This document shows positions 2 to 27,889 of a DNA stretch of 64,000 nt, one piece after another. This DNA is from an uncultured Algibacter sp. (lineage in GTDB: Bacteria; Bacteroidota; Bacteroidia; Flavobacteriales; Flavobacteriaceae), in contig NZ_CANKXG010000003.1 in the NCBI RefSeq assembly GCF_947487575.1, positions 248,001-312,000 on the forward strand, written 5' to 3'. Positions within the stretch are counted from its first letter, which is position 1, and each line of letters starts with the position of its first letter. The position numbers and the translations under genes were made by a program. The notes under the pieces were generated by a model. It saw nothing but the letters and a program-made list of their open reading frames with translations. It was not told the origin of the DNA and did no database searches.

Positions 2-2596
2 GCCATGATTCAAATGGTCGTTTCAGCAGGAAACGGAAGAGAAACTGTGTTTTTAGAAAAAGGAGAAGTTGAAGCTATTGGTGCGCATAAACACAAAGTA
101 GGTTTTGAAGTTGACGAGCCTGATGTGATTAATATTATTGAAAAAGATGATGCTTTCAGCATCCTATCTCCTAGAAACTTAAGCACATTTGTTATGGCTA
201 CCGAAATAGCAGGAACCATAAAAAAAGATAGCTTACAAACCATGTCATTACGAACCTTATATCGTGATGGTGATGTGTCTTTTGTACCACTTTCTTATCA
301 TCCAAAAGCGGAAATAGCACTTGTAAGTGCCTCTGAAAAACCAAAAGATAACGATGAACAAAAAGATGATGCTTTAGTTGTAAATATTCAAGTAAACGAA
401 ACCCTAAAAAAAGCAACATTACTATATCGTGAAGGCTTTTTACCAACAACACACAATGTAAACATTGACAATATTAAAGTATCGCTATCCTATGGTGCTG
501 AAGCTATAACTATACCTTTTTCAATTCATTTAGACGATTTTCAATTAGAGCGCTATCCTGGATCAACAAGTCCATCTGCATATGCAAGTGAGGTTAAAGT
601 TCTTGATAATAACACAGAAACACCACACCGCATTTTCATGAATAATGTATTGGATTACAAAGGCTATCGTTTTTTTCAAGCCAGTTATGACACAGACGAA
701 TTAGGAACCGTGTTAGCCGTTAATCATGATGTTATTGGCACAAATATTACTTATTTGGGTTATTTTTTAATGATGATAGGTATGTTTTTTACACTCTTCG
801 GGAAAACATCTCGTTTTACATTAATTAATAAAAAATTAAAAAAGCTCAAGCTGAAAAACGCTTTAATATTTCTACTTTTTTGTGGTCTTTCAAATAGTGC
901 TTTTGCACAAAATAAAAAAAGCAAAGCACCAAAACTTAATTTACAAACTATAGGCCAACAGCATATAGATGTACAACACGCAGAATTGTTTGGTCGTTTA
1001 ATGGTACAAGATTTAGACGGACGTATAAAACCAATGAATACTCTGGCCTCCGAGTTTTTAAGAAAACTATCACGCAAGCCTTATTTCAAATTTACACAAG
1101 ATGGAGAAAGTATTCGCTTTAGTGCAAATCTGGCATTTTTAGCTATGCAATCGGCATCAAATGTTTGGCAATATATCCCGCTTATAAAAATAGACCCTAA
1201 AAAAGGAGGCGAACTCTTTAAAAAATTAAACATAAGCGAAGATGGCTTAGTGGCTTTTGTAGGCTTATTAGACGATAAAGGAAAGTACTTATTTGGTCAA
1301 GCTGTTGAACAGGCTAATAAAAAAAAACCTGCAGAGCGAAGTGAATTGGATAAAGAAGTTTTAAAAGTAGATGAACGCTTCAATATTCTTTACAACGTAT
1401 TTTCTGGAAACTATTTAAAAGTATTTCCTAATAGCAATGATGAAAATAATAAATGGCATAGTCAAACACATCATTTTCAAGATTTCCCTGCTGAAGATGG
1501 TGCATTTGCTAAACAAATTATACCAACTTATTTTAAAGATGTTACTACTAAAAATTGGGTAGATGCTAGTGAAAAATTAGCCTATATTAAAACATTTCAA
1601 GACGTTTTAGGCAAAGACATTATTCCGAATAGAAAACGTATTGAAGCAGAATTATGGTACAACCAACTCAATTTAAATTTTTGGTTGTTTCAAGTGTTTT
1701 TTACTTTGGGCGCTATTCTTTTAGTTTTAGCTATAACTAAAATTTTTACTAAGAAAAAAGCAATTGAATATCTTTGGAATATCTTTATCATTACAACCCT
1801 TATTAGCTTCCTTCTATTTACTGGAAACATCATTCTACGATGGTATATAGCACAACACGCACCTTGGAGTAACGGCTATGAAATGTTGGTATTTGTATCT
1901 TGGGTATTGCTACTTTGCGGATTAATGACTTTTAGGAAATCGGATTTTGCCTTACCACTCTCCACATTATTTTCAGGCGCTTTATTATTTGTAAGTTACC
2001 TAGATTGGTTAAGTCCAGAAATAACCAATTTAATGCCTGTACTAAAATCGTTTTGGTTAAAAATTCATGTAGCTACCATTGTAAGTAGTTATGCGCCTTT
2101 AGCCCTTTCTGCTGTATTAGGTTTTATGGCATTATTGCTCATGATTTTTAAAACTGAAAAGACAAAGAAAGAAATTGACATTAGAATTAAAGAACTCACA
2201 TATATCAACGAAATCTCAATGACTATCGGTTTATTCGTGTTAGCTGTAGGCACATTTTTAGGAGGTATATGGGCAAATGAATCTTGGGGACGTTATTGGG
2301 CTTGGGACCCAAAAGAAACTTGGGCATTAATTAGCATTATAGTCTATGCTATTGTTTTACACCTTCGTTTAATTCCTGGTTTAAAAAGCAATTACATGCT
2401 AAATACTGCAAGTGTATTCGCATTTGGCTCTATTATCATGACATCCTTTGGTGTCAATTATTATTTATCTGGTTTACATAGTTACGCTGCTGGAGACCCC
2501 TTGCCCATACCAACATTCATTTACGTTTTAATTGTTGTAGTCATCATTGTATCTGTGTTAGCTTATTACAGAAAGAAAGCTTTTTCTCTTAAATAA
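2..2596 (+). CDS. ccsA: Cytochrome c biogenesis protein, ResB/CcsA fusion (5' partial)
   Basis: This is the 3' part of a large membrane protein of the System II cytochrome c maturation pathway, which delivers haem to apocytochromes at the periplasmic face of the inner membrane. The frame is open to the left edge, so the true start lies outside the window. The first 270 residues look like the C-terminal part of ResB/CcsB, with a segment like YRFFQASYDTDELGT and then a membrane helix near residue 250. A periplasmic linker follows. From about residue 560 there are multiple CcsA-type helices, with the tryptophan-rich haem-handling motif WGRYWAWDPKETW near residue 761 and conserved histidines in KIHVATIVSSY and in LSGLHSYAAG. 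ResB and CcsA fused in one chain is known in several Bacteroidetes and epsilonproteobacteria. Confidence 0.9.
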   Translation, partial: AMIQMVVSAGNGRETVFLEKGEVEAIGAHKHKVGFEVDEPDVINIIEKDDAFSILSPRNLSTFVMATEIAGTIKKDSLQTMSLRTLYRDGDVSFVPLSYHPKAEIALVSASEKPKDNDEQKDDALVVNIQVNETLKKATLLYREGFLPTTHNVNIDNIKVSLSYGAEAITIPFSIHLDDFQLERYPGSTSPSAYASEVKVLDNNTETPHRIFMNNVLDYKGYRFFQASYDTDELGTVLAVNHDVIGTNITYLGYFLMMIGMFFTLFGKTSRFTLINKKLKKLKLKNALIFLLFCGLSNSAFAQNKKSKAPKLNLQTIGQQHIDVQHAELFGRLMVQDLDGRIKPMNTLASEFLRKLSRKPYFKFTQDGESIRFSANLAFLAMQSASNVWQYIPLIKIDPKKGGELFKKLNISEDGLVAFVGLLDDKGKYLFGQAVEQANKKKPAERSELDKEVLKVDERFNILYNVFSGNYLKVFPNSNDENNKWHSQTHHFQDFPAEDGAFAKQIIPTYFKDVTTKNWVDASEKLAYIKTFQDVLGKDIIPNRKRIEAELWYNQLNLNFWLFQVFFTLGAILLVLAITKIFTKKKAIEYLWNIFIITTLISFLLFTGNIILRWYIAQHAPWSNGYEMLVFVSWVLLLCGLMTFRKSDFALPLSTLFSGALLFVSYLDWLSPEITNLMPVLKSFWLKIHVATIVSSYAPLALSAVLGFMALLLMIFKTEKTKKEIDIRIKELTYINEISMTIGLFVLAVGTFLGGIWANESWGRYWAWDPKETWALISIIVYAIVLHLRLIPGLKSNYMLNTASVFAFGSIIMTSFGVNYYLSGLHSYAAGDPLPIPTFIYVLIVVVIIVSVLAYYRKKAFSLK

Positions 2597-2666
2597 CTCA
2601 TGCTCAATCTTCAGGTTTCTACCTTTCTTTTAAAATCACAAATGGGTTGCTTGAACTTTAAATACG

Positions 2667-2756
2667 GTTCACTTTCAATATAAAACACTTCACTTTAGAT
2701 TTTAGTCACTTCACTTAGAAAGTCATTATTCTGCCTTTAGTCGTGGTATACATTTG
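2667..2756 (+). promoter_or_regulatory. Activator-type promoter with three 21-bp-phased TTCACTT repeats
   Basis: TTCACTT occurs at 2668, 2689 and 2710, exactly 21 bp apart, and a TACATTTG -7 box starts at 2749, 39 bp after the third repeat. No -33 TTG is evident. The same 90-bp arrangement recurs at 6712-6801 with identical spacings. Direct repeats two helical turns apart are the usual layout of LytTR-domain binding sites, and a LytTR regulator is encoded at 4791-5552, so it is the probable activator. The half-site sequence does not match the published LytTR consensus, so the link is inferred from spacing and context. Confidence 0.7.
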
Positions 2757-2780
2757 TATAAGAATTAAAACAATAACGTC

Positions 2781-2918
2781 ATGAAAAAGTTAATATCAAT
2801 GCTAAAGAAATGGAAGTTTGGAAAACGTTTTTTACATCTAAAAAACTCTAAAAAAGATACCTCAGCTAGATTAATTTTAATCAACAGAGACATTAATAAC
2901 ATTCATATGTTTATATAA
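2781..2918 (+). CDS. Very small basic protein (45 aa), unknown function
   Basis: A 45-codon frame opens with ATG 24 bases after the -7 box at 2749-2756 and ends at TAA just before the lipoprotein gene at 2933. The product begins MKKLISMLKKWKFGKRF and is rich in Lys and Arg, with no clear membrane helix. It is the first possible gene of the transcript made from the phased-repeat promoter. The second such promoter (6712-6801) likewise drives very short frames, but I see no sequence similarity between the small products. It could be a real small protein or a leader peptide. I do not recognise a family. Confidence 0.4.
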   Translation: MKKLISMLKKWKFGKRFLHLKNSKKDTSARLILINRDINNIHMFI

Positions 2919-2932
2919 ATACACTAGAAATC

Positions 2933-3586
2933 ATGAAAACAATAAGCAAAATACTAAGCATATTAATACTAATTATTATGTTTACAAGTTGCTCAACTGT
3001 CAAAGTTGTTAGTACTTGGAACCATTCAAAAGAACTCAATTTAAATGATAAGCGCATCATGGTAATAAGTAAAACGGATGACAATATTGTTAGAAGTCAG
3101 TTTGAGAGTGACCTTGTAAACAAGTTAAGGGAGCATGGTCTCAATTCTATGGAAAGCCTAACCGTTTTTCCAAAAATTGATACTGAGGTAAAACTTAACG
3201 AAAATGAAGTGCAAAAAATCGTTGAGGATTTGAAAAACAAAGGAGTAGACATAATTATTCTTAATACTTTAAAAGATACTCAAGAATATACCAGAACAGA
3301 AACAACTGGTGGTGGCTACTCAACACTTTATTTTCCCACATACTTTAGAGGGCCTAATGGAACATTCTATCGTTACTACAATAGTATTCATGTAAAATCT
3401 GAGCCTGAAAGCACTATTACCCATACTGGTAAAAAATACATTCTAGAAACTGTTATTTACGATTTAACAAAAACTGATAACGAACAATTAATATCAGTTA
3501 TAACGACAGAGATTGATAATCCTAAGTCTTTAGGAACTATTTCTAAAGATTTTTCAAAACAAATAATAAAAAAATTGATAAAATAA
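2933..3586 (+). CDS. Lipoprotein of unknown function, paralogue of the one at 17731-18411
   Basis: The 217-residue product has a lipoprotein signal peptide with lipobox ending at Cys20 (MFTSCST). The rest is a soluble periplasmic domain with alternating strands and helices, for example KRIMVISKTDD and VDIIILNTLKDTQ, suggesting a Rossmann-like or DUF4136-like fold, which I cannot confirm. It aligns along its length with the lipoprotein at 17731-18411: both have a (T/A)W segment after the lipobox, a central VFPKID or KFPNLK segment, and an LKDT segment. It lies between the phased promoter and the LytS-type kinase, so it is probably an output or accessory of that system. A strong terminator follows at 3621-3669. 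Confidence 0.75.
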   Translation: MKTISKILSILILIIMFTSCSTVKVVSTWNHSKELNLNDKRIMVISKTDDNIVRSQFESDLVNKLREHGLNSMESLTVFPKIDTEVKLNENEVQKIVEDLKNKGVDIIILNTLKDTQEYTRTETTGGGYSTLYFPTYFRGPNGTFYRYYNSIHVKSEPESTITHTGKKYILETVIYDLTKTDNEQLISVITTEIDNPKSLGTISKDFSKQIIKKLIK

Positions 3587-3620
3587 TTTTCATGCATAGT
3601 TAGTTTGGTTGGTTAGTTTG

Positions 3621-3669
3621 ACTGCCAGAGATTATTGAAATACATTTCATGCCTCTCTGGCAGTTTTTA
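3621..3669 (+). terminator. Rho-independent terminator after the lipoprotein gene
   Basis: A perfect 11-bp stem is formed by ACTGCCAGAGA (3621-3631) and TCTCTGGCAGT (3654-3664), with a 22-nt loop and a T-run after it. The first possible ATG of the kinase frame (3649) lies in the loop, which argues against that start. Confidence 0.8.
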
Positions 3670-3729
3670 ATTTCATTCATTCAGCTAAAATTATACAATT
3701 TACTTACATTAATTTTAACTATATTAGTT

Positions 3730-4785
3730 ATGTTCTTCATCAATAACACTATAACCATTTTGACGACCAAATTTATAAAGCAAAACATTTTACTAGGTAT
3801 AGCATTTATTATATCAACACTTTTAACCTTACCTAGAATTTTGATTATATTTGATATTGTTGATGACCTATCAACTGCTTTCACTTCGGCTTCTGTAAAA
3901 GATATACTCTTTCGATTTTTATGGTTTACTTTTTTCTCTTGGTTACTATTAGAATTTAATGCAAACACTAAATATTTTTATTCCAAATTTCAAAGCGTAC
4001 TAAGAGGGTTAACAACCATCATAATTAATATTGCTTTATACTTCGCTTTATTACATTTGTTCTTCTTTTTGTACCCAAGGTTAGTAGGAGAATCAATGGT
4101 TTCAGAAGAACAAGGGTTAACCTACTTCGTATATTTTATCGTAGCAATAATAATCATATTTGTCGCTAGAATTTTAAGGTATCAATTGAGCTTAAAAGAA
4201 AAATTAATAGAGCAAGAAGCTTTAAAACAACAAAGCTTACAAAATGAATTGATGGCTTTAAAAAATCAAGTTAATCCTCATTTTCTATTCAACTCTCTAA
4301 ATTCATTAAGTGCACTTGTAAAACAAAATAAAGACGCTACCAACTTTATAAACAAACTCTCTTCTATGTATCGTTATATTCTGCAAAGCAGTGAACGAGA
4401 TTTAGTATCTATAGAAGAAGAGCTTGAGTTTTTAAATAGTTATATCCATTTAATTAAAACAAGGTATCGTAATCGTTTTAACATCACTTGTAATATTCAT
4501 GAAAAATGGTTAAATAAAGAAGTACCTGTTTTGGCGCTTCAATTATTAGTTGAAAATGCCATTAAACACAATGAAATATCAGAAGAGAATCCGCTTCAAG
4601 TCAACATATATTCTGAAGATGAGTTTATAATTATTGAAAATGAAATAAGACCCAGAAAAAGTTTAGTTACTGGAACAGGAAATGGTTTATCAAACCTTAA
4701 TAAACGGTATTATGCTCTAAAAAAGAAACACATATCAATAAGTAATAAAAACAACACCTTTAAAGTTAAACTTTCTTTAAATTGA
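3730..4785 (+). CDS. Sensor histidine kinase, LytS/YehU family (His_kinase PF06580 type)
   Basis: This membrane-bound sensor kinase has about four or five N-terminal transmembrane helices with no evident extracytoplasmic sensor domain. A short coiled linker follows, and then the phosphoacceptor motif NQVNPHFLFNSLNSL (His184 counted from the start chosen here). The ATPase region has LVENAIKHN and a glycine-rich GTGNGLSNL near the C-terminus. The reading frame is open upstream to an ATG at 3649, but that codon sits in the loop of the terminator at 3621-3669. I therefore prefer ATG 3730, which loses part of one predicted helix; the start is uncertain. The stop codon abuts the start of the LytTR regulator gene (4791), so the two are surely co-expressed. 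The kinase should phosphorylate that regulator. Confidence 0.85.
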   Translation: MFFINNTITILTTKFIKQNILLGIAFIISTLLTLPRILIIFDIVDDLSTAFTSASVKDILFRFLWFTFFSWLLLEFNANTKYFYSKFQSVLRGLTTIIINIALYFALLHLFFFLYPRLVGESMVSEEQGLTYFVYFIVAIIIIFVARILRYQLSLKEKLIEQEALKQQSLQNELMALKNQVNPHFLFNSLNSLSALVKQNKDATNFINKLSSMYRYILQSSERDLVSIEEELEFLNSYIHLIKTRYRNRFNITCNIHEKWLNKEVPVLALQLLVENAIKHNEISEENPLQVNIYSEDEFIIIENEIRPRKSLVTGTGNGLSNLNKRYYALKKKHISISNKNNTFKVKLSLN

Positions 4786-4790
4786 ATACC

Positions 4791-5552
4791 ATGAAAGTAG
4801 TTATTGTAGAAGATGAATTAGCAGCAAGTGAACAACTCACTTACTTAATAAATAATATAGATGCTAGCATAGAGATACTAACTGTTCTGGATTCTGTAAA
4901 ATCTGCCATCGATTATTTTTCTAATCCAAGCGAAGCCGTTTTAGTTTTTATGGATATACACCTTTCTGATGGTATTTCATTTGAAATTTTTGAACAGGTA
5001 ACTATCAATATTCCAATAATATTTACAACAGCTTATGACCAATATGCACTAAAAGCATTTAAGGTAAATAGCATTGATTATCTTTTAAAGCCAATTAATG
5101 AGGAAGAATTAAGCAGCTCTATTAAAAAGTTTAAAACTAATACCAAAATTGACACAATCTCTTACGATAATATCCAACAATTAGTACAATTAATGCAATC
5201 TAAAAATCAGGTTTTCAGAACTACATATTTAGTACATCAGAGAGATGAATTAATTCCAGTTAAAACAGAAGATATTGCTTATTTTTTTATAGAAAATAGT
5301 ATTGTAAAAGCTGTGACGCTTAAAAATCAAACTTATATAATAGATAAAAAACTAGAAGACATTGAAAACGAATTAGACTCGTATAACTTTCATAGGGTAA
5401 ACAGGCAATTTATACTTAATAGAAATGCTATACAGAATATTAAATTCTACTTTAATGGAAAACTAATTATTAATGTAAATCCGTCATCTAAGGAGCGCAT
5501 TACAATAAGCAAAGCGAAATCATCAGAAATAAAGACATGGATAAATAATTAG
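4791..5552 (+). CDS. LytTR-family response regulator
   Basis: The protein has an N-terminal receiver domain (VVIVEDELAASEQ, phospho-acceptor Asp55 in VFMDIHLSDG, TTAYDQYALKAF, and the Lys of YLLKPINEEE). After a linker there is a C-terminal LytTR DNA-binding domain, with DIAYFFIENSIVKAVT and the hallmark FHRVNRQFILNRNAI. ATG 4791 is chosen because an in-frame TTG at 4782 overlaps the kinase stop and would add only three residues. The kinase gene lies directly upstream. LytTR proteins bind direct repeats spaced about two helical turns apart, matching the triple repeats at 2668-2716 and 6713-6761 that bracket this locus. I infer that these are its targets and that the circuit is positively autoregulated or feeds the flanking small genes. 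Confidence 0.9.
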   Translation: MKVVIVEDELAASEQLTYLINNIDASIEILTVLDSVKSAIDYFSNPSEAVLVFMDIHLSDGISFEIFEQVTINIPIIFTTAYDQYALKAFKVNSIDYLLKPINEEELSSSIKKFKTNTKIDTISYDNIQQLVQLMQSKNQVFRTTYLVHQRDELIPVKTEDIAYFFIENSIVKAVTLKNQTYIIDKKLEDIENELDSYNFHRVNRQFILNRNAIQNIKFYFNGKLIINVNPSSKERITISKAKSSEIKTWINN

Positions 5553-5587
5553 GCTCACTAAAAATGTTTAACTATCAATGATTTAAT

Positions 5588-6622
5588 TTGAAATCTAGAC
5601 ATTATAAAATATTACGAGATTATATCATTGGTTGGCTAATGGCAAGCCTGGTCTGGCAACTCCTTCGCGGGTCTCAAGACGTGAACATCCCTTATATGGA
5701 GGACTCTTTCTCCAATATACTTTTTATATTCATTATAGCATGGATAACCCAAGGGATACTTTACGGTATACTTCATATTTTCCTTGAAAAATTGGTTAGA
5801 AAACGTATTCCATTATCTAAGTTATTGGTATTTGCACTTATACTACAAATTATATCGGCTATTGGATTTTATTTATTTATATTTTATTTATATTTTATTT
5901 ATTTGTTAAGATTGAAATATTTGTAGATACTACTTTTAAAATGTCAGAGTTTATTCAATTACCTGTTATTTGGGTAAGCTTTATCTATACTATAGTAGTT
6001 AACTTCTTTATCAGTCTTTTTCTCAATATTAATTTAATGTTAGGTGAAGGCAATTTGATTAAATTTATTTCAGGAAAATTCTATACTCCAAAAGAAAAAG
6101 AGCTTATTTTTATGTTTTTAGACCTTAGGAATTCTACCACAATTGCTGAAAAATTAGGGCATAGTTAATAAATATAAAGCTTCTATTTACCAATATGTAG
6201 GAGATGAAGCTGTTTTAACTTGGCCGTATAAAGAAGGCCTTAAAAACGCTAAAAGTATTCGCGCTTTTTATGCTTTTAAAGATCAAATTAAGAGTAAAAC
6301 AGATTACTATCTAAAAACTTATGGTTTAGTACCAGAATTTAAAGCAGGTATGAATTGTGGTACCGTAACTGTTGCAGAAGTTGGAGAATATAAACGTGAA
6401 ATTGCATATCATGGTGATACTATAAATACAGCTTCAAGAATCCAAGACCAATGTAATCGATTAGGGTTTGACCTACTTATTTCAGAAAAATTTTTAAAAG
6501 TCGTAGAAATTGACTCATGGACGACATCTAAACTTGAAGGCAATGTGCTTCTAAAAGGTAAGCAGGGAACAGTAAATATCTATTCCGTAACACGCACTGA
6601 GGATACTCTCCAATCTAAGTAG
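5588..6622 (+). pseudogene. Adenylate/guanylate cyclase with membrane anchor, broken
   Basis: Three fragments together cover a class III nucleotide cyclase: a membrane part (5588-5926), the start of the catalytic domain with MFLDLRNSTTIAEKLGH (in 5941-6168), and the rest, with YQYVGDEAVLTW and AYHGDTINTASRIQ (about 6169-6622). The first break is a frameshift in the T/A-rich run near 5880-5915, because the second frame reads back as VKIEIFVDTTFK directly before the ATG at 5941. The second break, at about 6168, also lacks roughly 20 residues normally found between the LGH and QYVGDE segments, so it is a deletion and not just one miscalled base. The start would be TTG or lost. The gene lies downstream of the LytTR regulator. 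An intact copy would make cAMP or cGMP. Assembly error cannot explain both lesions easily. Confidence 0.8.
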
Positions 6623-6711
6623 CATTTTTGAAGTTATACCACTATAATTAGGGCATCAAAACAGGACTGTTTTCTTCAACTCTTATCACTTACCTAATAC
6701 TAACATTTTAA

Positions 6712-6801
6712 GTTCACTTTCAATTAGAATCACTTCACTATTCTATTTGGTCACTTCACTTAGTTAACCACAATTTCAACTTTCACTTAGACCTAAATTT
6801 G
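6712..6801 (+). promoter_or_regulatory. Second activator-type promoter with 21-bp-phased TTCACTT repeats
   Basis: TTCACT(T) starts at 6713, 6734 and 6755, 21 bp apart, and TAAATTTG starts at 6794, 39 bp after the third repeat. Blocks GTTCACTTTCAAT and TCACTTCACTTAG are identical to those at 2667 and 2706, at the same relative positions. A fourth TTCACTT lies at 6782. No -33 TTG is seen. It is the presumed promoter of the small genes at 6833-7150 and perhaps of the lipoprotein at 7208. Confidence 0.7.
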
Positions 6802-6832
6802 TACTATAAATAATAATTAAATACAAATAGAT

Positions 6833-7009
6833 ATGAGAACTCAAAGCACAACAATTAACAATGCTCAATTCAATAAGAATTTTTATAGACCTATAATGGG
6901 AGAAAAACCAACATATACAATACTGGAAAAAGTTAAAATAGTTTTCAAAAACACTATCAAAATGCTAGAAGAATATGGTACAGCTGCAGGAGTAGCTATG
7001 AGACAATAA
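6833..7009 (+). CDS. Small protein (58 aa), unknown function
   Basis: A 58-codon frame starts at ATG 6833, about 30 bases after the -7 box of the phased promoter, and ends at TAA 7009. The product begins MRTQSTTINNAQFNKNF and has a helical C-terminal half (ILEKVKIVFKNTIKMLEEY). There is no signal peptide or membrane helix. Its position directly behind a strong-looking regulated promoter and tightly before another short frame supports expression. I do not recognise the family. Confidence 0.5.
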   Translation: MRTQSTTINNAQFNKNFYRPIMGEKPTYTILEKVKIVFKNTIKMLEEYGTAAGVAMRQ

Positions 7010-7021
7010 ACACTAAAAGTT

Positions 7022-7150
7022 ATGGCTATTTTATTAGAATACCTGAAAATTATAGTATTAGTGTCGGCATTAATTCAAATAGGAGTTTTTGGATACACTA
7101 AAACAAGAGAGAAAATAAAATCATTATTAACCATTAAACACTTCAAATGA
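7022..7150 (+). CDS. Small single-span membrane protein (42 aa)
   Basis: A 42-codon frame follows 12 bases after the preceding small gene. The product has one hydrophobic helix (LKIIVLVSALIQIGVFGY) and then a basic tail (TKTREKIKS), as expected for a small inner-membrane protein with its C-terminus in the cytoplasm. It is probably co-transcribed with 6833-7009 from the phased promoter. No family is recognised, and no homology to the 45-aa product at 2781 is seen. Confidence 0.45.
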   Translation: MAILLEYLKIIVLVSALIQIGVFGYTKTREKIKSLLTIKHFK

Positions 7151-7207
7151 ATCCATTAAAAATGTAAAGCACGGGTACATTTGAATAGAAATTAAAAACA
7201 AAATAAG

Positions 7208-7687
7208 ATGAAAAATTTTAAGTATTTATTAATTACAATCGCTAGTCTTTCTATATCTGTATTATCATGCAGCAGCGACAACGACTACAACGACCACGAC
7301 TACCACTTAGAGTATTCAGGTGTTACAAACGCAGAACTTCCAAATGAATTTAATTACGGGAGCACTTACAAAATTAATATAACCATATCGCTACCCAATA
7401 GTTGTTATTTTTACTATGACCAGTTTGATTATATTTATGATGGACCAACAAGGCTTATATACCCTATAGTACATGTAGATGATGGTATTGGTTGTAATGA
7501 AGTTATTACTGAAACAACATTTTCAATACCAGTAAGAGCATTACAGAAAGAAACTTATGTTTTTAAATTTTATCAAGGTGAAGATTCTGATGGAAAAGAT
7601 ACCTTTTTAACTATTGAGGTTCCTGTTAACACTAGAAATCAAAAGGATATTGAAAATTTAAAAACAAGTGATGTTATATTTGAATAA
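7208..7687 (+). CDS. Lipoprotein of unknown function
   Basis: The product has 159 residues with a lipoprotein signal ending at Cys21 (SVLSCSSDND). An Asp/Tyr/His-rich stretch follows the lipobox, and then a beta-rich domain with several aromatic residues (SCYFYYDQFDYIYDG) and one more cysteine pair candidate. A -7 box TACATTTG at 7176-7183 lies 25 bases before the ATG, so the gene may have its own promoter besides readthrough from the small genes. A strong terminator follows at 7701-7735. The gene belongs positionally to the LytTR-flanked block. No domain family is recognised. Confidence 0.7.
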   Translation: MKNFKYLLITIASLSISVLSCSSDNDYNDHDYHLEYSGVTNAELPNEFNYGSTYKINITISLPNSCYFYYDQFDYIYDGPTRLIYPIVHVDDGIGCNEVITETTFSIPVRALQKETYVFKFYQGEDSDGKDTFLTIEVPVNTRNQKDIENLKTSDVIFE

Positions 7688-7700
7688 AAAACAGAGTTTA

Positions 7701-7735
7701 AAAAGAGGTGCGAAAATATAAAACGCACCTCTTTT
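7701..7735 (+). terminator. Rho-independent terminator
   Basis: A perfect 12-bp stem is formed by AAAAGAGGTGCG (7701-7712) and CGCACCTCTTTT (7724-7735), with an 11-nt A-rich loop. It closes the 7208-7687 transcript. Confidence 0.85.
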
Positions 7736-7792
7736 CATTTGAATAGACTTTAGTTTTAACTATTTTAGTCCAACTAACTTCTTTTATAATTT

Positions 7793-9631
7793 ATGCTTAC
7801 ACTTTTAATTATTTTAGGTATTACAATAGGGCTTTTTGTTTGGGGTAAATTCACACCAGATATTGTAGCGCTTATGTCCATGTTAAGCTTATTTTTATTT
7901 GGCATCTTAGACCTTCCTGAAACTCTTAGCGGGTTTAGTAACCCTACAGTAATAATGATTGCTTCCTTATTTATTATTGGAGAAGGTTTATCTCAAACAG
8001 GATGGACAGCATTAGCAGGACAAAAATTTGTTAAATGGGCTGGTAAAAGTGTTCCTAAGCTATTAGTATTAGTTACCTTAGGCTCTGGTATTTTATCTGG
8101 TTTTGTAAGCAATACCGGAACTGTTGCTACATTACTACCAGTTACTGTATCTGCCGCATATAAAATGGGCACATTGCCTTCAAAATTATTAATGCCTGTT
8201 GCTTTTGGGTCAAATACTGGAGGTTTATTGACATTAACGGGTACACCTCCAAATATTATTGCCAGTAATGCCTTAGTAGAAAATGGGTTCGAATCCTTTT
8301 CATTTTTTGAATTTGCCCTCATTGGCTTGCCATTGCTACTTATTTCAATTTTATATTTCCGTTTTATTGGTTATAAATTATTGCCAAAAAACACCTCTGA
8401 AAATCAGCCAATAAATATAGATTCTGAAATGCATCAATGGATTGAAAATTATAGTATTGATGAAAATATTTATCGTCTAAGAGTCCGCTCTATGTCTCCA
8501 TTACTAAATACTACGATTGGTGAATGGGACTTCGATAATAAACATAATGTTTCAATAATTAGATTAAGACGACGATTTCCTAATTTAGTAAAAGGTGTGA
8601 AACCGTATGTTGAATTTCCAACACCAGATACAATTTTACAATATCATGATATTATTACAGTAAAAGGGAAGACAGAAGATGTTGATAATTTAATTCTAAA
8701 ATTTAAACTCAATTTAATTCCTTTTAAAAACAATAATGATGATTTAAAGGATGAGTTCATAAATCAGGAAGTAGGTATGGCTGAAATGATTGTGACACCC
8801 AAATCGCTTTTTTTAGGACACAACATACCTATGGGACTATATTTGGAACAAGCTGGTATTCAACTATTGGCAGCCTCAAGAAACAACAAACCTTTAAAAG
8901 ATAAAAACGTTGCTGTAAAAGCTGGAGATGCGTTTATTATTAGAGGTACATGGGAACGCATAGAACATTTAAAAAGTGTTTATAAAAATCTTGTCATTTC
9001 TGGAAGCCCAGAAAGTATGGCTAAAGATGTAAATAAGCTAACCTTTAAATCATATATATCGCTAGCAATGCTTTTATTAATGATTGTATTATTAGTTTTT
9101 AAAATTGTTCCTGGAGCAATTGCAGCTATGATTTCTGCAGGTGTTATTTTATTGACTGGTTGTGTACCAATGGCTAAAGCATATAAAGGTATTAGTTGGA
9201 TAAGTGTCGTAATGATTGCAGCAATGATTCCTATGGGTATTGCGCTTCAAAAAACGGGTGTTGCGGAACTTGCTGCCAATAGCTTGGTTACTAATTTAGG
9301 AAGTATACACCCTATTGTTTTATTAGGTGGCATATTTTTATTAACTACTGGTTTTAGTCAAGCCATTAATAACTCAGCTACTGCTGTTTTAATGGCACCA
9401 ATAGCCATATTAGCCGCCACGTCTTTAAATATTTCACCCGAACCATTTATGATTGTTGTTGCCATTAGTGCATCTACTGCTTTTTTAACCCCCGTTGGCA
9501 CAACAACCAATGCCATGGTTATGGCTGCGGGCGATTATAAATTTATGGATTATGTAAAAGTTGGTACACCTTTATTACTACTATTTTTTATTTTATCTTT
9601 GATTTTAGTGCCTATGATTTGGCCTTTTTAG
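7793..9631 (+). CDS. SLC13/DASS-type permease with two TrkA-C domains
   Basis: This 612-residue inner-membrane transporter has the layout of the bacterial SLC13-like group: a first membrane half (about residues 1-200) and then two cytosolic RCK_C/TrkA-C domains (about 215-300 and 305-395). The second membrane half runs to the C-terminus. Signature stretches are SNTGTVATLLPVT and NTGGLLTLTGTPPN in the first half and the symmetrical NNSATAVLMAP and TPVGTTTNAMV in the second. Proteins of this type carry sulfate, dicarboxylates or similar anions with sodium. The substrate cannot be read from sequence. It stands alone between two terminated or divergent units. Confidence 0.85.
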   Translation: MLTLLIILGITIGLFVWGKFTPDIVALMSMLSLFLFGILDLPETLSGFSNPTVIMIASLFIIGEGLSQTGWTALAGQKFVKWAGKSVPKLLVLVTLGSGILSGFVSNTGTVATLLPVTVSAAYKMGTLPSKLLMPVAFGSNTGGLLTLTGTPPNIIASNALVENGFESFSFFEFALIGLPLLLISILYFRFIGYKLLPKNTSENQPINIDSEMHQWIENYSIDENIYRLRVRSMSPLLNTTIGEWDFDNKHNVSIIRLRRRFPNLVKGVKPYVEFPTPDTILQYHDIITVKGKTEDVDNLILKFKLNLIPFKNNNDDLKDEFINQEVGMAEMIVTPKSLFLGHNIPMGLYLEQAGIQLLAASRNNKPLKDKNVAVKAGDAFIIRGTWERIEHLKSVYKNLVISGSPESMAKDVNKLTFKSYISLAMLLLMIVLLVFKIVPGAIAAMISAGVILLTGCVPMAKAYKGISWISVVMIAAMIPMGIALQKTGVAELAANSLVTNLGSIHPIVLLGGIFLLTTGFSQAINNSATAVLMAPIAILAATSLNISPEPFMIVVAISASTAFLTPVGTTTNAMVMAAGDYKFMDYVKVGTPLLLLFFILSLILVPMIWPF

Positions 9632-19165: not shown

Positions 19166-22100
19166 TTAATCTAAAAGGGCATCATTGAATTTATAATCTT
19201 TATAATTCACTTTATACATCACACTATAAAATGCTGGAATAAATAATAATGTAATTACGGTTCCAAACAGTAAACCAACCATAATGGTTACCGCCATAGG
19301 TTCCCACATTTCTCCACCACCTAGATATAAAGGCACTAAGCCTAAAACGGTTGTAAATGTGGCTAATAAAATGGGTCTAAATCGTTGTAAACATGCTGCA
19401 ATAATAGCATCTTGTGGTTTACGGTTTAATTCAGATTCTTCAATTTCAATTCTATCTACTAAAACGATGGCATTATTAATAACGATTCCTGCTAATGAAA
19501 TTACACCTAAAAATGCCATAAATCCAAATGGAACACCGAACAATAATAAACCTAAAACCATCCCAATGACTCCCAACGGAATTGTACAAACAATCATCAC
19601 CATTTTTCTAAATGAGTTAAACTGAATGATTAATAACATGACAATGATAAAAGCTGAAAGCGGTAAATAACTAGCTACTGCTCCCATATTTTCTGCAGAA
19701 CTCTTTGCATCACCTCCTAATTCATAAGTATAGCCTTTACCCCAAACTTCTTTTTGTTCTTCTAGCCAAGGCGTAATCGCTTGAGTCACCTCGGAAGCAT
19801 TACCCGTAGTTGTTAATTCACTGGATACCTTAATGGTTCTTGTTAAATCAATACGCTTTATTTTAGAGTATTGCCATTCTGGAATAATAGTGGCTACCTG
19901 TAATAAAGGCACACTTTTTCCTGAACTTTGAGCATATATATTTAAGGTTTCTAATGACGATAATGATTGTTGTTTGCTTTGGTTACTCTTCATTATGATA
20001 GGAATGGATTTATCGCCTTCCCTATACTCTCCTGCTTGAAAACCATCTAAAACAGTTTGCAGAGACGTTGCAATATCTTGATTAGTAATGCCTGCAGTTT
20101 GTGCTTTACTTTGATCAATATCTATAACAAACTTCTTCCCTTTTGGTCCCCAGTCATCTTTGATGTTTTTTGTTCCAGAAATGGTAAATAACTTTGCTTT
20201 AATTTCTTCGGAGATACTTGCTAATTTATCTGGATCATCACCTGAAACTTCAATTTCTACAGGTGTTCCACCACCACCAGAACCAAGTAAACCAACTTTA
20301 ATATCGGCATTTGGGAAATTTTCAAAACTGAATGCATCTAGTTTTTCAACCATAAGATTATTCACCAAGAAAGAAGAGGTATTAATTAAAATATGTGCAT
20401 AATTAGAATTTGCTTCATCTGCATTATAACCTAAATCGTAAGCTGATGGGCCTTCTCCAATATAAGCCGACCAATCTACAATCCCATCTGGTTTATCATC
20501 TGTTACTTTTAGTTCTTTTCCCATAAAGTCCTCAAGTGCTAAAATTACAGCTGTGGTACTTTCAATTTTTGTGTTCTCTGGTAAATTAACATCTACCGTT
20601 ATCATATTACGATCACTATCTGGAAAGAATACAAATCCTAAAAGACCAAATCCAAAAATGGATAAAAAGAACATAAAAACGATAAGCACCAATACTGATT
20701 TTTTCCAATTGAGCGCTACTAAGATTAAATCTTTATACTTACTTTTTAATCCATTAATTAATTTATCTAAGAAGCTTACTTTCCCAGCTTCTTTTGGTTT
20801 TACTTTTAAAAAGAAAACACAGAATAGGGTGATAACACTTAACGCTATAATCCATGAAGACAAGAGAGCAATCGTTATAACAACGAAAATGGGTCCCATA
20901 ATATCTCCCATGACCGATTCTGCCATATAGAAAGCTAAAAACGCTGCAGATGTTGTTAATGTTGAAATTAATAAGGGTGTAAATAATTCTGAACACGAAT
21001 CTATGGCTGCCTTTTTAACAGAAATACCTGCCTCCATTTTTACCATGACCGATTCTGCTACAACAATAGCATTATCTACCATCATCCCTAAAGCCATAAT
21101 TAAAGCTGCTAACGAAATTTGATTTAATCCAACATCAATTAACCCCATAACCATAAGTGTGGTGATGGTTACAATAGGAATTAAACTTGCTATGACCAAT
21201 CCTGTTCTTATTCCTAAAAAGAATAACATCACTGCCAATACAATGGCAATAGCCTGTAAAAGGTTTCCAATAAAATCACTAATTTTTAAATCGATGTATT
21301 GATCTATTGATGCTAAACGAGATACCTCTAATCCAACTGGTAATTTATCTTGCCACTCCGCTAACAACACATCAATTTCTTCGCCTAACTTAATGATATT
21401 TGCACCTTCTTTTAAAGATATATGCAATGAGATAGCATCCTTTCCATTAATACGTACTTTTTGTTTTGGCGGATTGATATACCCTTTTTTAACCGTAGTA
21501 ATATCTTCAAGAGCTATAACTTGTCCACTTTCTCCAACGGGGATTAACATGTTCTGTATCGACCTTAAATCGTTGAAATTACCCGTTGGTTCAAGAATAA
21601 TACGTTCGGCTTCAACATTAATAGTTCCACCTGAGCTTAATATATTCGTACTACCAATAATATTTTTCAATCTGCTAGAAGTTAGTCCGTAGGCCTTTAA
21701 TCTGGTATTTTCAAACTCAACAAAAACACGTTCTTCCTGCGCACCGTTCAACTCAACTTTGGCAGCATCTTCAAGTTTTATTAAATCATCTCTCAAATCA
21801 TCTGCATAATCTTTCATTTCTGCATAGTCATAACCATCGGAAATTAAACCTACAGCAATACCAAATACTTCTCCAATACCATCATCCCGTAATTGCGGAT
21901 TTACATTACTAGGCAAGCCTTGAATCGTGCTCAGTTTTCGACGTAAACGGTCCCATACTGGCTGTAATTCTTCAGGTGAAACTTCCATTTTTAATTCAAC
22001 CTGAACAACTGAAAGTCCTGTACGCGATGTGCTTTTCACCACTTTTAATTCTGGTAATTCCTGTGCTACTTTTTCAATTTTGTCACTAACCAATTCTTCT

Positions 22101-22276
22101 ACACGTTCTGGACTTGCGCCAGGAAATGAGGATACTACTGATGCTACTCTAATGGTATATGGTGGCATACTATCTCTTGAAAGGCTTGCGTAAAACAACA
22201 TCCCCATGACCATAACAACAGCTAGGATACTTAAAACTACGCGATTACGATTTATTGAAAATTCTGTAAGATTCAT
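19166..22276 (-). CDS. RND-family efflux pump, inner-membrane permease
   Basis: The 1036-residue protein has the AcrB/HAE1-like layout: helix 1 (NRVVLSILAVVMVMGML), two large periplasmic loops, and six plus six helices. The central TM4 motif is MALGMMVDNAIVVAES, with a single Asp where many family members have DD. A conserved SSFPGASPERVEELVSDKI porter start and a late MAFLGVISLAGIVINNAIV segment (TM10) are also present. It is the proton-driven pump of a tripartite complex with the adaptor (22301-23392) and the TolC-like protein (23404-25734). Gene gaps are 24 and 11 bases. Substrate unknown; metals, drugs or lipids are possible. Confidence 0.92.
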   Translation of the reverse strand: MNLTEFSINRNRVVLSILAVVMVMGMLFYASLSRDSMPPYTIRVASVVSSFPGASPERVEELVSDKIEKVAQELPELKVVKSTSRTGLSVVQVELKMEVSPEELQPVWDRLRRKLSTIQGLPSNVNPQLRDDGIGEVFGIAVGLISDGYDYAEMKDYADDLRDDLIKLEDAAKVELNGAQEERVFVEFENTRLKAYGLTSSRLKNIIGSTNILSSGGTINVEAERIILEPTGNFNDLRSIQNMLIPVGESGQVIALEDITTVKKGYINPPKQKVRINGKDAISLHISLKEGANIIKLGEEIDVLLAEWQDKLPVGLEVSRLASIDQYIDLKISDFIGNLLQAIAIVLAVMLFFLGIRTGLVIASLIPIVTITTLMVMGLIDVGLNQISLAALIMALGMMVDNAIVVAESVMVKMEAGISVKKAAIDSCSELFTPLLISTLTTSAAFLAFYMAESVMGDIMGPIFVVITIALLSSWIIALSVITLFCVFFLKVKPKEAGKVSFLDKLINGLKSKYKDLILVALNWKKSVLVLIVFMFFLSIFGFGLLGFVFFPDSDRNMITVDVNLPENTKIESTTAVILALEDFMGKELKVTDDKPDGIVDWSAYIGEGPSAYDLGYNADEANSNYAHILINTSSFLVNNLMVEKLDAFSFENFPNADIKVGLLGSGGGGTPVEIEVSGDDPDKLASISEEIKAKLFTISGTKNIKDDWGPKGKKFVIDIDQSKAQTAGITNQDIATSLQTVLDGFQAGEYREGDKSIPIIMKSNQSKQQSLSSLETLNIYAQSSGKSVPLLQVATIIPEWQYSKIKRIDLTRTIKVSSELTTTGNASEVTQAITPWLEEQKEVWGKGYTYELGGDAKSSAENMGAVASYLPLSAFIIVMLLIIQFNSFRKMVMIVCTIPLGVIGMVLGLLLFGVPFGFMAFLGVISLAGIVINNAIVLVDRIEIEESELNRKPQDAIIAACLQRFRPILLATFTTVLGLVPLYLGGGEMWEPMAVTIMVGLLFGTVITLLFIPAFYSVMYKVNYKDYKFNDALLD

Positions 22277-22300
22277 AATTAATGGTTTGGTTAGCTATTA

Positions 22301-23392
22301 TTATTTTAATCTTACGTCTTGTCCGTCTAATAAGGTTTGTAAACCAGCTGTTGCTATTTTATCTCCAGCTACTAATCCATTTTTCACTTCAAAACCATCA
22401 GCAGTCAACTCTCCTAATTCTAAATAGCGTTTATTCACTGTTCCCGTTGCATCATCCTTAGATGTAATTAAAAAAACAAAACGCCCTTTCCCATCTTCAC
22501 CAACTGATTTAACAGGAATAATTAATGATTTACTTTGCTTGTTGTCACCATTTGTAAAATCGAAAGTAACGCTGGCTGCCATTCCTGGTTTAATGTCTTG
22601 TATTGGATTAATAATTTCTATGGCAGTAATATAAGTTGATGAATTTGGATCAATACTGGGTGACACTTCAAAGATTCTACCTTCAAATGTTTTATTTTCA
22701 ATTGAAGAAAAATCCATTTTGGTAGTCATGTCTACTTTTACCTTATTAATAACAGATTCGGGTAAACCAACCTCAACCTTCATTCCATCACCAGCATTTA
22801 ATTCGGCAAACTGATGACCAGCAGAAACGCGTTCATTTACAGCACCATCAGTCCAAGCAATAACACCATCTTTTGGTGCTCTAATAACACCATAGCTCAA
22901 TTGTGTTGCTTGTATAGTTTTACCCTGTTTAGCAGATTCAAATTGATCTAAAGCTGATTGATATGAATTTTTTGCCTGTTCATATTCACTTAATGAATTA
23001 CTTCCTTTTTCATATAAAGATTTTACTCTATCTAAATTTGATTTAGCGGTATTCATAGCCGATTTCGCCGTATTTAAAGCTGAAACTGATTGTTGATAAG
23101 ATAAATTTGCTTCTACATTATCTAATCTGGCAATCACATCATCCTTTTTAACTTTTGCTCCTTTCCAATGATTAACTTTGGTAATAACACCACTACTTCT
23201 AAAACTTAAACCTATTGCATCACTGGCTTTTGCAGTACCGCTAAATGTTCTTATTTTATGAGCATCAACATCTCCCACTACTTCATATTTCACGGGTCGC
23301 AAAACAGTTTCTTTAACTTGCTTTTCTTCTTTACAAGAGATAAAGGCAATTAAACTTAAAATTGTGATTAGGATATATTTTTTAATCTTCAT
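22301..23392 (-). CDS. RND efflux periplasmic adaptor (membrane fusion protein), lipoprotein
   Basis: The 363-residue protein has a lipoprotein signal with lipobox at Cys20 (IAFISCKEE). The order of domains is the MFP one: barrel-sandwich half (GVITKVNHWKGAKVKKDDVIARLDN), helical hairpin (LDRVKSLYEKGSNSLSEYEQAK), second lipoyl half (GVIRAPKDGVIAWTDG), beta-barrel and membrane-proximal domains. It links the pump (19166-22276) to the TolC-like channel (23404-25734). It is the second gene of the operon. Confidence 0.9.
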   Translation of the reverse strand: MKIKKYILITILSLIAFISCKEEKQVKETVLRPVKYEVVGDVDAHKIRTFSGTAKASDAIGLSFRSSGVITKVNHWKGAKVKKDDVIARLDNVEANLSYQQSVSALNTAKSAMNTAKSNLDRVKSLYEKGSNSLSEYEQAKNSYQSALDQFESAKQGKTIQATQLSYGVIRAPKDGVIAWTDGAVNERVSAGHQFAELNAGDGMKVEVGLPESVINKVKVDMTTKMDFSSIENKTFEGRIFEVSPSIDPNSSTYITAIEIINPIQDIKPGMAASVTFDFTNGDNKQSKSLIIPVKSVGEDGKGRFVFLITSKDDATGTVNKRYLELGELTADGFEVKNGLVAGDKIATAGLQTLLDGQDVRLK

Positions 23393-23403
23393 AATACAGG
23401 TTG

Positions 23404-27780: not shown

Positions 27781-27868
27781 TTGGGCGTTACCCACAAGGG
27801 GTCGGGCTTTCCGTTATATCTTTTTTGAGAAAAACAAAAAAGGATGCCACTGCAATCCCTAACGCAGT
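27781..27868. repeat. Dispersed intergenic repeat, copy A (GGGCGTTACCC / GGGTCGGGCTTTC family)
   Basis: This stretch between the M20 and EamA genes has GGGCGTTACCC, then GGGTCGGGCTTTCCGTTATA, then TGCCACTGCAATCCCTAACG. The same order of blocks recurs at 46990-47085 and 61878-61976, and in inverted orientation at 35553-35653. It is non-coding and likely a mobile or amplified repeat. Confidence 0.75.
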
Positions 27869-27889
27869 CCCAACTTTAATATGTAATAC

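Follow-up and report, generated by a model that had tools for sequence, protein, structure and literature searches.

In an uncultured Algibacter sp. (NCBI assembly GCF_947487575.1), a sensor kinase gene, lytS, and a response regulator gene, lytTR, are bracketed by two promoters, P1 and P2, of the same design: three direct half-sites of the type TTCACTT with a period of 21 bp, followed by a TAnnTTTG box. We analysed them in a window of 64,000 nt (contig NZ_CANKXG010000003.1, positions 248,001 to 312,000) and compared them with related genomes; motif, spacing, conservation, co-occurrence, gene order, terminator and tail homology were all computed here. As far as sequence comparison can tell, P1 and P2 are real and conserved, and most likely targets of the LytTR protein encoded between them. 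This had been proposed in the original prediction, which was made by a model from the sequence of the window, and it is supported by 63 of 65 flavobacterial loci and by co-occurrence across genomes. Our best reading is a two-component cell-envelope regulon with a candidate small RNA (sRNA) arm. With a probability of roughly 0.85, the overall explanation is that P1 and P2 are activated by LytTR, with damped feedback, an envelope response, and a P1 message that bears a tail.

Two promoters of one design flank lytS and lytTR

The original prediction described three TTCACTT copies at 21-bp spacing in each promoter. This is correct for all half-sites of P1, for the outer two of P2 and for the spacing, while the middle half-site of P2 is TTCACTA. 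The start of the third half-site precedes the start of the box by 39 bp in both promoters; this distance had been described as a gap, but the true gap is 32 bp. Two blocks are identical between the promoters, GTTCACTTTCAAT (at 2667 and 6712), which has the 13 bp ascribed to both, and GTCACTTCACTTAG, which has 14 bp. TAnnTTTG is the sigma-A -7 box (PMC9723704; for this and all other papers cited, statements refer to the parts accessible to us). The regulator and its kinase were found between the promoters as predicted, with matching Pfam domains.

The likeness of P1 and P2 is not due to chance. The pattern TTCACTT-N14-TTCACTT has two matches in the window, both inside P1, and none in 100 dinucleotide shuffles. 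In the whole 3.5-Mb genome, three mismatch-free copies of TTCACT at 21 bp are found at P1 and P2 only; with up to three mismatches allowed, the pattern matches 16 times and a reversed control pattern 14 times. We also aligned 75 promoters, P1 and P2 among them, to obtain a sequence profile of 107 positions (R1). Its only strong matches in the genome are P1 and P2 (66.8 and 62.2 bits), the next best reaching 17.0 bits.

Conservation of the promoter at orthologous loci

For the comparison of LytTR-gene loci, the best 80 of 160 were used together with the window, giving 81. According to regulator identity, they were grouped into L059-L123 (65 Flavobacteriaceae loci, 54-97%) and L124-L138 (15 loci, 35-44%). 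A two-part site matrix was refined iteratively from seeds; as the refinement imposed the 21-bp spacing, the spacing is not independent in this analysis. At 20 bits or more, 107 sites were found in 66 of the 81 loci, that is in the window, in 63 of the 65 loci of the first group and in 2 of the 15 of the second, while the best scores in loci shuffled in two-base blocks stayed below 1. The two loci of the first group without a site, L105 and L113, hold at most 1.6 kb of upstream sequence. With a stricter cut of at least 42 bits, 93 sites remain; they come from the window and from 60 loci of the first group, 61 loci in all. The box follows the third half-site at 39 bp in 82 of the 107 sites and at 38 bp in the other 25. 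It had been stated in advance that a repeat spacing not conserved in relatives would speak against the prediction; 21-bp triplets with a box at 38 or 39 bp were found at 63 of the 65 loci.

The TTCAC core (at least 4 of 5 bases) is present at half-sites 1, 2 and 3 in 65, 74 and 67 of 78 non-redundant sites. At the 21-bp positions before and after the triplet, the core occurs in only 1 and 3 of them, and thus there are three repeats and no fourth. Divergent promoters, arranged back to back, occur in six loci (L081, L083, L089, L090, L114, L118).

A hold-out matrix was trained on 63 sites from 43 of the distant loci (within L076-L123), excluding the window. It scored P1 with 70.3 and P2 with 65.2 bits, nothing else in the window scored above 0, and the maximum in 20 shuffled windows was 6.1. 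All 17 loci from L059 to L075 were matched as well.

The strict three-half-site pattern was tried as a statistic on 149 relatives and rejected: 24 genomes match, many by simple TTCACTT/TTCACTG repeats, and the reversed control matches too. By eye, only the matches in G000, G045, G028 and one row of G014 resemble this promoter (G, C and L denote our genome, contig and locus numbers). Counts of the strict pattern were replaced by the R1 profile.

A motif-free test scored triplets of phased 14-mers ahead of a TAnnTTTG box, with 10 shuffles per locus. Six of the seven other LytTR loci of the genome were at or below the shuffle maximum. Among L124-L138, three loci (L124, L135, L138) scored slightly above their shuffles, L126 was spoilt by masked bases, and the remainder, L125 aside, was not above. 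L125, from Rikenellaceae, reached 34 versus 16. It has three GTCGTTTGA-like repeats, 21 bp apart, behind lytTR from 6821; this is the same layout in Bacteroidales with a different half-site ending.

Taken at the level of sequence, the promoter circuit is conserved in many flavobacteria.

Co-occurrence of promoter and regulator

In the 149 relatives, R1 gave 51 matches in 23 genomes (E 1e-4), and the regulator was found (E 1e-60) in 13 genomes, all of them among the 23. Nine of the remaining ten R1-positive genomes have a more distant LytTR gene (E 1e-25), and 41 of the 51 matches lie within 13 kb of a close or distant LytTR gene. In five genomes chosen by the promoter alone (G057, G065, G093, G117, G147), an R1 match starts only 2-10 bp behind the distant LytTR gene.

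A survey of 397 Flavobacteriaceae genomes found R1 (E 1e-7) in 42, the regulator in 43 and both in 37; such many-genome searches used filters that lose weak matches. The promoter is present in all 37 genomes with a regulator of 56-100% identity, in none of the six where identity is 41-46%, and in 5 of the 354 without the regulator (Fisher p 3e-40, kinship among genomes ignored). The Algibacter genome itself has eight LytTR genes, and a strong R1 match occurs near this one only.

Comparison with known LytTR systems

The window pair has the composition of a LytS/LytTR two-component system, with a receiver fused to a LytTR domain and a partner kinase of family PF06580. A LytTR Regulatory System (LRS) consists of a LytTR regulator and a membrane-protein partner, without a kinase. 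We considered the window pair as an LRS, which is ruled out by the receiver domain and the histidine kinase.

The YpdA/YpdB system of E. coli is likewise a His_kinase and Response_reg-LytTR pair. The YpdB spacer has 11 nt. The consensus operator unit obtained here, GTCRnTTCACTT, is close to the direct repeat of YpdB, GGCATTTCAT (PMC4847170), which also has a period of 21 bp, so that the earlier view of a half-site differing from the published consensus had to be dropped. Most LytTR sites are pairs of repeats, each 9-11 nt long and separated by 11-13 nt, without a common consensus (PMC4847170, PMC6193735); the 21-bp period of P1, P2 and their relatives agrees with this type of spacing, with three copies and not two. 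Unlike in YpdA/YpdB, there are three repeats rather than two, the -7 box is that of Bacteroidota, and the targets comprise small genes of envelope type as well as candidate RNAs. One target of YpdB, yhjX, encodes a transporter (PMC7730263).

LRS-like operons of Bacteroides also combine direct repeats, 11 bp apart, with a TATCTTTG box downstream, and autoregulation is presumed for them; according to the numbers in print, 34 bp lie between the end of the second repeat and the box, compared to 32 bp here (PMC6193735). They differ in that their regulators contain transmembrane segments and pair with a membrane protein and in having two repeats, TCCGGTATTCA/ACCGGAAATCA, and the accessible part of the paper mentions no sRNA-like tail (PMC6193735). 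In Flavobacterium johnsoniae lines, mutations were described in a LytTR gene and in a consecutively numbered histidine kinase gene, and most of these lines also had a changed efflux TolC (PMC10197871).

The conserved third repeat is unusual among LytTR sites. Together with a shared RNA tail (see below), it marks this variant LytS/LytTR regulon as new. In the accessible parts of the open-access literature, we recognised no paper on this promoter, regulon or tail RNA.

Genes behind the promoters and operon boundaries

The features of the locus are compiled in Table 1. The expectation that both promoters drive very small genes plus a lipoprotein agrees with the ORFs (open reading frames) of the window, while the regulon seems to be wider, with candidate sRNAs in relatives.

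Table 1. Features of the lytS-lytTR locus and other features referred to in the text. Positions are those of the window unless a contig is given.
Feature	Position	Strand	Basis or remark
P1 half-sites, 3x TTCACTT	2668..2716 (2668, 2689, 2710)	+	each 7/7; period 21 bp
P1 -7 box TAnnTTTG, TACATTTG	2749..2756	+	sequence read directly; published sigma-A consensus
45-aa ORF ending MFI, behind P1	2781..2918	+	several relatives end FLFI or LFI; no Pfam match
217-aa putative lipoprotein, predicted PelC/CsgG-like fold, behind P1	2933..3586	+	alignment of 17; structure model
U/G-rich stretch, homologous to tail of relatives' candidate sRNA family	3587..3619	+	R2 match
Intrinsic terminator-like hairpin and T-run, between P1 operon and lytS	3620..3668	+	hairpin/T-run test
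lytS, membrane sensor histidine kinase	3730..4785	+	PF06580 His_kinase, 5.1e-25; start set by orthologue starts
lytTR, response regulator	4791..5552	+	PF00072, 9.8e-11; PF04397, 1e-19
Broken class III cyclase gene, three ORF pieces	5588..6622	+	longer open frame in L059; not counted in circuit
P2 half-sites, TTCACTT, TTCACTA (6/7), TTCACTT	6713..6761 (6713, 6734, 6755)	+	period 21 bp
P2 -7 box TAnnTTTG, TAAATTTG	6794..6801	+	sequence read directly
58-aa ORF ending AAGVAMRQ, behind P2	6833..7009	+	close relatives: 62 aa
42-aa ORF, first half hydrophobic, behind P2	7022..7150	+	ORF list, relatives
Weak promoter-like half (proximal half-site and TACATTTG), 5' of second lipoprotein	7139..7192	+	13.3 bits, E 0.0034 in window
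159-aa putative lipoprotein, behind P2	7208..7687	+	in L223 directly follows such a promoter; weak sub-cut-off DUF4999 match
Terminator-like hairpin behind P2 operon	7698..7738	+	7690-7745 folds at -18.0 kcal/mol
RND efflux operon	19166-25734	-	OEP 23404-25734, HlyD 22301-23392, AcrB 19166-22276
Noise-level R1 matches	G000:C4:137475-137534 and G000:C6:111935-111981		near two other LytTR genes

Pfam and NCBIfam contain no family above cut-off for either lipoprotein of the window (weak: TIGR04455, 21.3/60 bits; DUF4999, 20/25), for the tiny proteins scanned or for the two acidic repeat proteins scanned. The proteins PelC, CsgG, LptE and GNA1162 are outer-membrane lipoproteins. A structure model of the 217-aa protein (pLDDT, the predicted local distance difference test, 74.5; poor at residues 126-157) suggests that it shares the general fold of the PelC/CsgG type. 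The best Foldseek match in PDB is PelC, 5t0z (E 1.6e-7, TM by target 0.62), yet with a root-mean-square deviation (rmsd) of 13.7 Å; weaker matches are to CsgG, LptE and GNA1162. Since the ten best PelC rows show only 9-12% identity and an rmsd of 13.5-16.3 Å, we propose the general fold only and do not claim family membership.

The promoter products were surveyed in 56 loci with sites of at least 42 bits, five near-duplicates having been removed. The 217-aa lipoprotein family is present in 21 of these. An acidic protein with a hydrophobic N-terminus and repeats like LxFDTxxYLPxGFNxY is found in 36 (19 aligned). In the aligned proteins (L116:4328-4834 and 18 relatives) there are 1-5 tandem repeats of about 35 aa each (LxFDTxxYLPxGFNxYxGM); the proteins are probably secreted, and in most cases their gene is the one next to the promoter that precedes lytS. 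Small ORFs of relatives end in FLFI or GxAMR. Single representatives in relatives match DUF4251 (3.9e-30), DUF6515 (1.6e-27) and, below cut-off, LTXXQ (1.7e-4). A 146-aa helical protein resembles Spy through weak sequence similarity to one LTXXQ-like member, and a fold search with it gave nothing significant (best E 0.12).

A hairpin before lytS was detected in 37 of 50 parsed loci, whereas 20 shuffle sets gave on average 4.9 and never more than 8; another 16 loci could not be parsed. A simpler hairpin scan with a loop limit of 8 leaves 3620-3668 unlisted. An upstream ATG of lytS, at 3649, falls within the terminator. With this terminator in place, the target genes would be expressed in large amounts, and lytS-lytTR would depend on read-through unless a separate promoter serves lytS.

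Candidate small RNAs and the tail of the P1 message

R1 matches remote from the regulator led to units consisting of a promoter, a short stretch without ORF, and a terminator. Using as definition a promoter matrix score of at least 18, no 40-aa ORF with a start in the next 130 nt, and a terminator at the end, 27 cases were found. One common tail is carried by 19 of them, in four relatives (six in L177 of G026, six in L216/L217 of G313, four in L219/L227 of G212, three in L220/L221 of G236), and the ORF-less stretches with this tail have 123-147 nt (18 aligned). The tail consensus is TTTTTCATATGGTTAGTTTGGTTAGTTT, then a 13-pair stem, in which five pairs are changed on both sides and 97.6% of cells are paired. 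For four of five measures, none of 500 shuffles came up to what was observed, and for the fifth three did, the test being made on the alignment from which the structure came and with shuffles that disregard kinship.

From the stand-alone tails we made a model, R2, with the window excluded, and ran it over 87 loci (1.03 Mb; E-values are rough). It matches the 3' end of the P1 operon at 3567-3668 (36.7 bits, E 4.5e-4) and the orthologous P1 tails in L062, L063 and L059 (40.2, 38.7 and 34.7 bits). Of the 39 rows down to that score, two truncated at locus ends and one on the other strand were dropped. For 21 of the 36 kept, an R1-type box of the same orientation (matrix at least 15) lies no more than 160 nt from the start, and for 33 no more than 1.3 kb; as the loci had been chosen for R1 sites, only strand and distance to the box are informative. 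The tail is without a match in Rfam at gathering score in nine sources, and two short stretches searched up to E 1 gave only implausible snoRNA/miRNA matches.

With 19 copies in four genomes, which are presumably transcribed, the units have the layout of a multi-copy RNA, a conserved single strand and a terminator. The FopS sRNA family of Bacteroides thetaiotaomicron is similar: its members are paralogous RNAs in multiple copies, each combining a conserved unpaired segment with a terminator hairpin; one of them derives from a 3' untranslated region (3'UTR), and expression responds to bile salts (PMC11697453). In contrast to the tail described here, which directly precedes the terminator, the conserved stretch of FopS is 5'-terminal, and FopS has canonical promoters, possibly with an unknown activator, where LytTR-type sites occur here (PMC11697453). 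In L212 and L211, there are tandem units of promoter and terminator, 302 bp and about 275 bp apart, with no clear ORF and with a sequence unlike the main RNA family.

A segment of the tail, UUUUUCAUAUGGUUAGUUUGGUUAGUUU, is near-invariant. The complement of the tail includes AUGAAAAA, a candidate for a start typical of secreted proteins. When the seed of the tail was compared with 58 start regions of the window, the best duplexes (-19.5 and -18.1 kcal/mol) were those of two genes of the RND operon, where AAACTAACCCCTATGAAAAA and GCTAACCAAACC lie near two gene starts; alone they are not significant, as 30 shuffled seeds reach -20.8 kcal/mol with a mean best of -17.0. CTAACC occurs in the start regions of 6 of 48 RND-type genes and 9 of 1207 others, a motif that was picked after seeing the matches and in relatives that are not independent. 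AAAAACTAA, which precedes HlyD in the window and in L230, is the end of the upstream gene, and the OEP start in G028 is without the motif. With these weak statistics, the RND operon as a target of the tail RNA is a lead only. In four relatives (L070, L072, L073 and L113), the orthologous OEP-HlyD-AcrB operon has the strand of lytTR and starts no more than 0.7 kb downstream of it, a single small gene separating the two in L070.

Surroundings of the locus

In L062, P2 follows only 82 bp behind lytTR, so that there is no room for a cyclase gene there. Positions 2-9629 of the window show 93% DNA identity to G045, which belongs to another genus, while matched parts of the next 10 kb show 75-81%. 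The cut-off for regulator or promoter was reached in none of nine congeners searched, and a second copy of the 612-aa permease is found on contig C13 of the genome. Positions 2-9629 were perhaps acquired from another genus. A Flavo-1 RNA (RF01705) is found at 27796-27879 on the minus strand of the window (56.5 bits).

Proposed mechanism and alternatives

From these data we infer LytTR binding, activation, feedback, an envelope role and any function of the tail RNA as follows. LytS would phosphorylate LytTR, which would then occupy the three direct half-sites GTCRnTTCACTT, two helical turns apart on one face of the DNA. Bound LytTR would activate the sigma-A promoter (TAnnTTTG) from a fixed distance of 38-39 bp between third half-site and box. 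P1 would express the 45-aa protein and the lipoprotein of PelC/CsgG-like fold and then terminate, lytS-lytTR being reached by read-through only, which would result in a damped positive feedback. P2 would express two tiny proteins and the second lipoprotein. The P1 message would end in the U/G-rich tail and terminator, and relatives also bear such a tail in stand-alone units behind like promoters.

Several points weigh against this mechanism. R1 was trained on loci of this regulator, so that the 37 of 37 is partly a matter of construction, and at least two training genomes, G045 and G028, are among those tested (L059 corresponds to G045:C1, L063 to G028:C3); the count of 5 in 354 and the cases with distant LytTR genes are free of this bias. 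The training sites behind the hold-out scores of P1 and P2 had first been located by a matrix whose seeds came from every locus, that of the window among them. In the motif-free test, the locus with P2 (P1 lies outside it) scores only 28 versus a shuffle maximum of 22, and another LytTR locus of this genome, L194, has 25 versus 21. Two other LytTR genes of the genome, on C4 and C6, each have an R1 match at noise level (10-11 bits, E 1-2) no more than 1.5 kb away. At family level, 59 of 95 R1 matches lie within 20 kb of the orthologue, and 36 are more remote or on another contig; some of these 36 may belong to other LytTR proteins. The cell-envelope response, finally, is suggested by the promoter products on the basis of product families only.

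It seems very unlikely to us that another regulator binds the motif, which would then merely travel with the locus. Such a regulator would account for sites on contigs without the orthologue (seven in G026:C7, several in G304) and in the five genomes without a close one, but these stray sites may also be targets in trans or targets of sister LytTR proteins. Moreover, the half-site and its 21-bp period are LytTR-like (PMC4847170, PMC6193735), every genome with a close orthologue has sites, and in five genomes R1 matches lie within 10 bp of LytTR genes. We likewise consider it unlikely, if somewhat less so, that LytTR represses P1 and P2, or that only the two proximal half-sites are used and the distal one is dispensable. 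In published LytTR targets the usual number of repeats is two (PMC4847170, PMC6193735), and the distal half-site is the least conserved of the three. Its core nevertheless persists in 65 of 78 sites, and, as is the case in activated LytTR promoters, the spacing between the box and the repeats upstream of it hardly varies. For the tail at 3587-3668, there is a substantial chance, not far below even, that it is a mere transcription terminator without RNA function: a terminator between the P1 operon and lytS is useful in any case, and in 20 of 41 loci a loosely defined U/G-rich motif is missing before the hairpin. However, a plain terminator does not need a conserved single strand, and in the 19 stand-alone copies of four genomes, the stem is preceded by about 27 unpaired nt that are near-invariant, while the upstream part and some stem pairs vary. 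Tentatively, and with somewhat less confidence, we suggest that in Flavobacteriaceae the LytS/LytTR system may run an envelope-stress response that has an RNA arm. The three-repeat promoters would express a multi-copy sRNA family, with further copies embedded in 3'UTRs (here at 3587-3668), UUUUUCAUAUGGUUAGUUUGGUUAGUUU would pair with start regions for translation, and the RND operon would be a candidate target.

Implications

To our knowledge, few transcription-factor sites are known in Flavobacteriaceae. For the proposed activation of P1 and P2 by LytTR, one regulator, one operator grammar and one target set can be read together, which makes the regulon directly testable. Promoter, regulator and targets are traceable across 32 of 237 sampled genera. 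Should the tail RNAs prove functional, flavobacteria would have a counterpart of FopS of Bacteroides, and its activator, which is unknown for FopS, would already be in hand.

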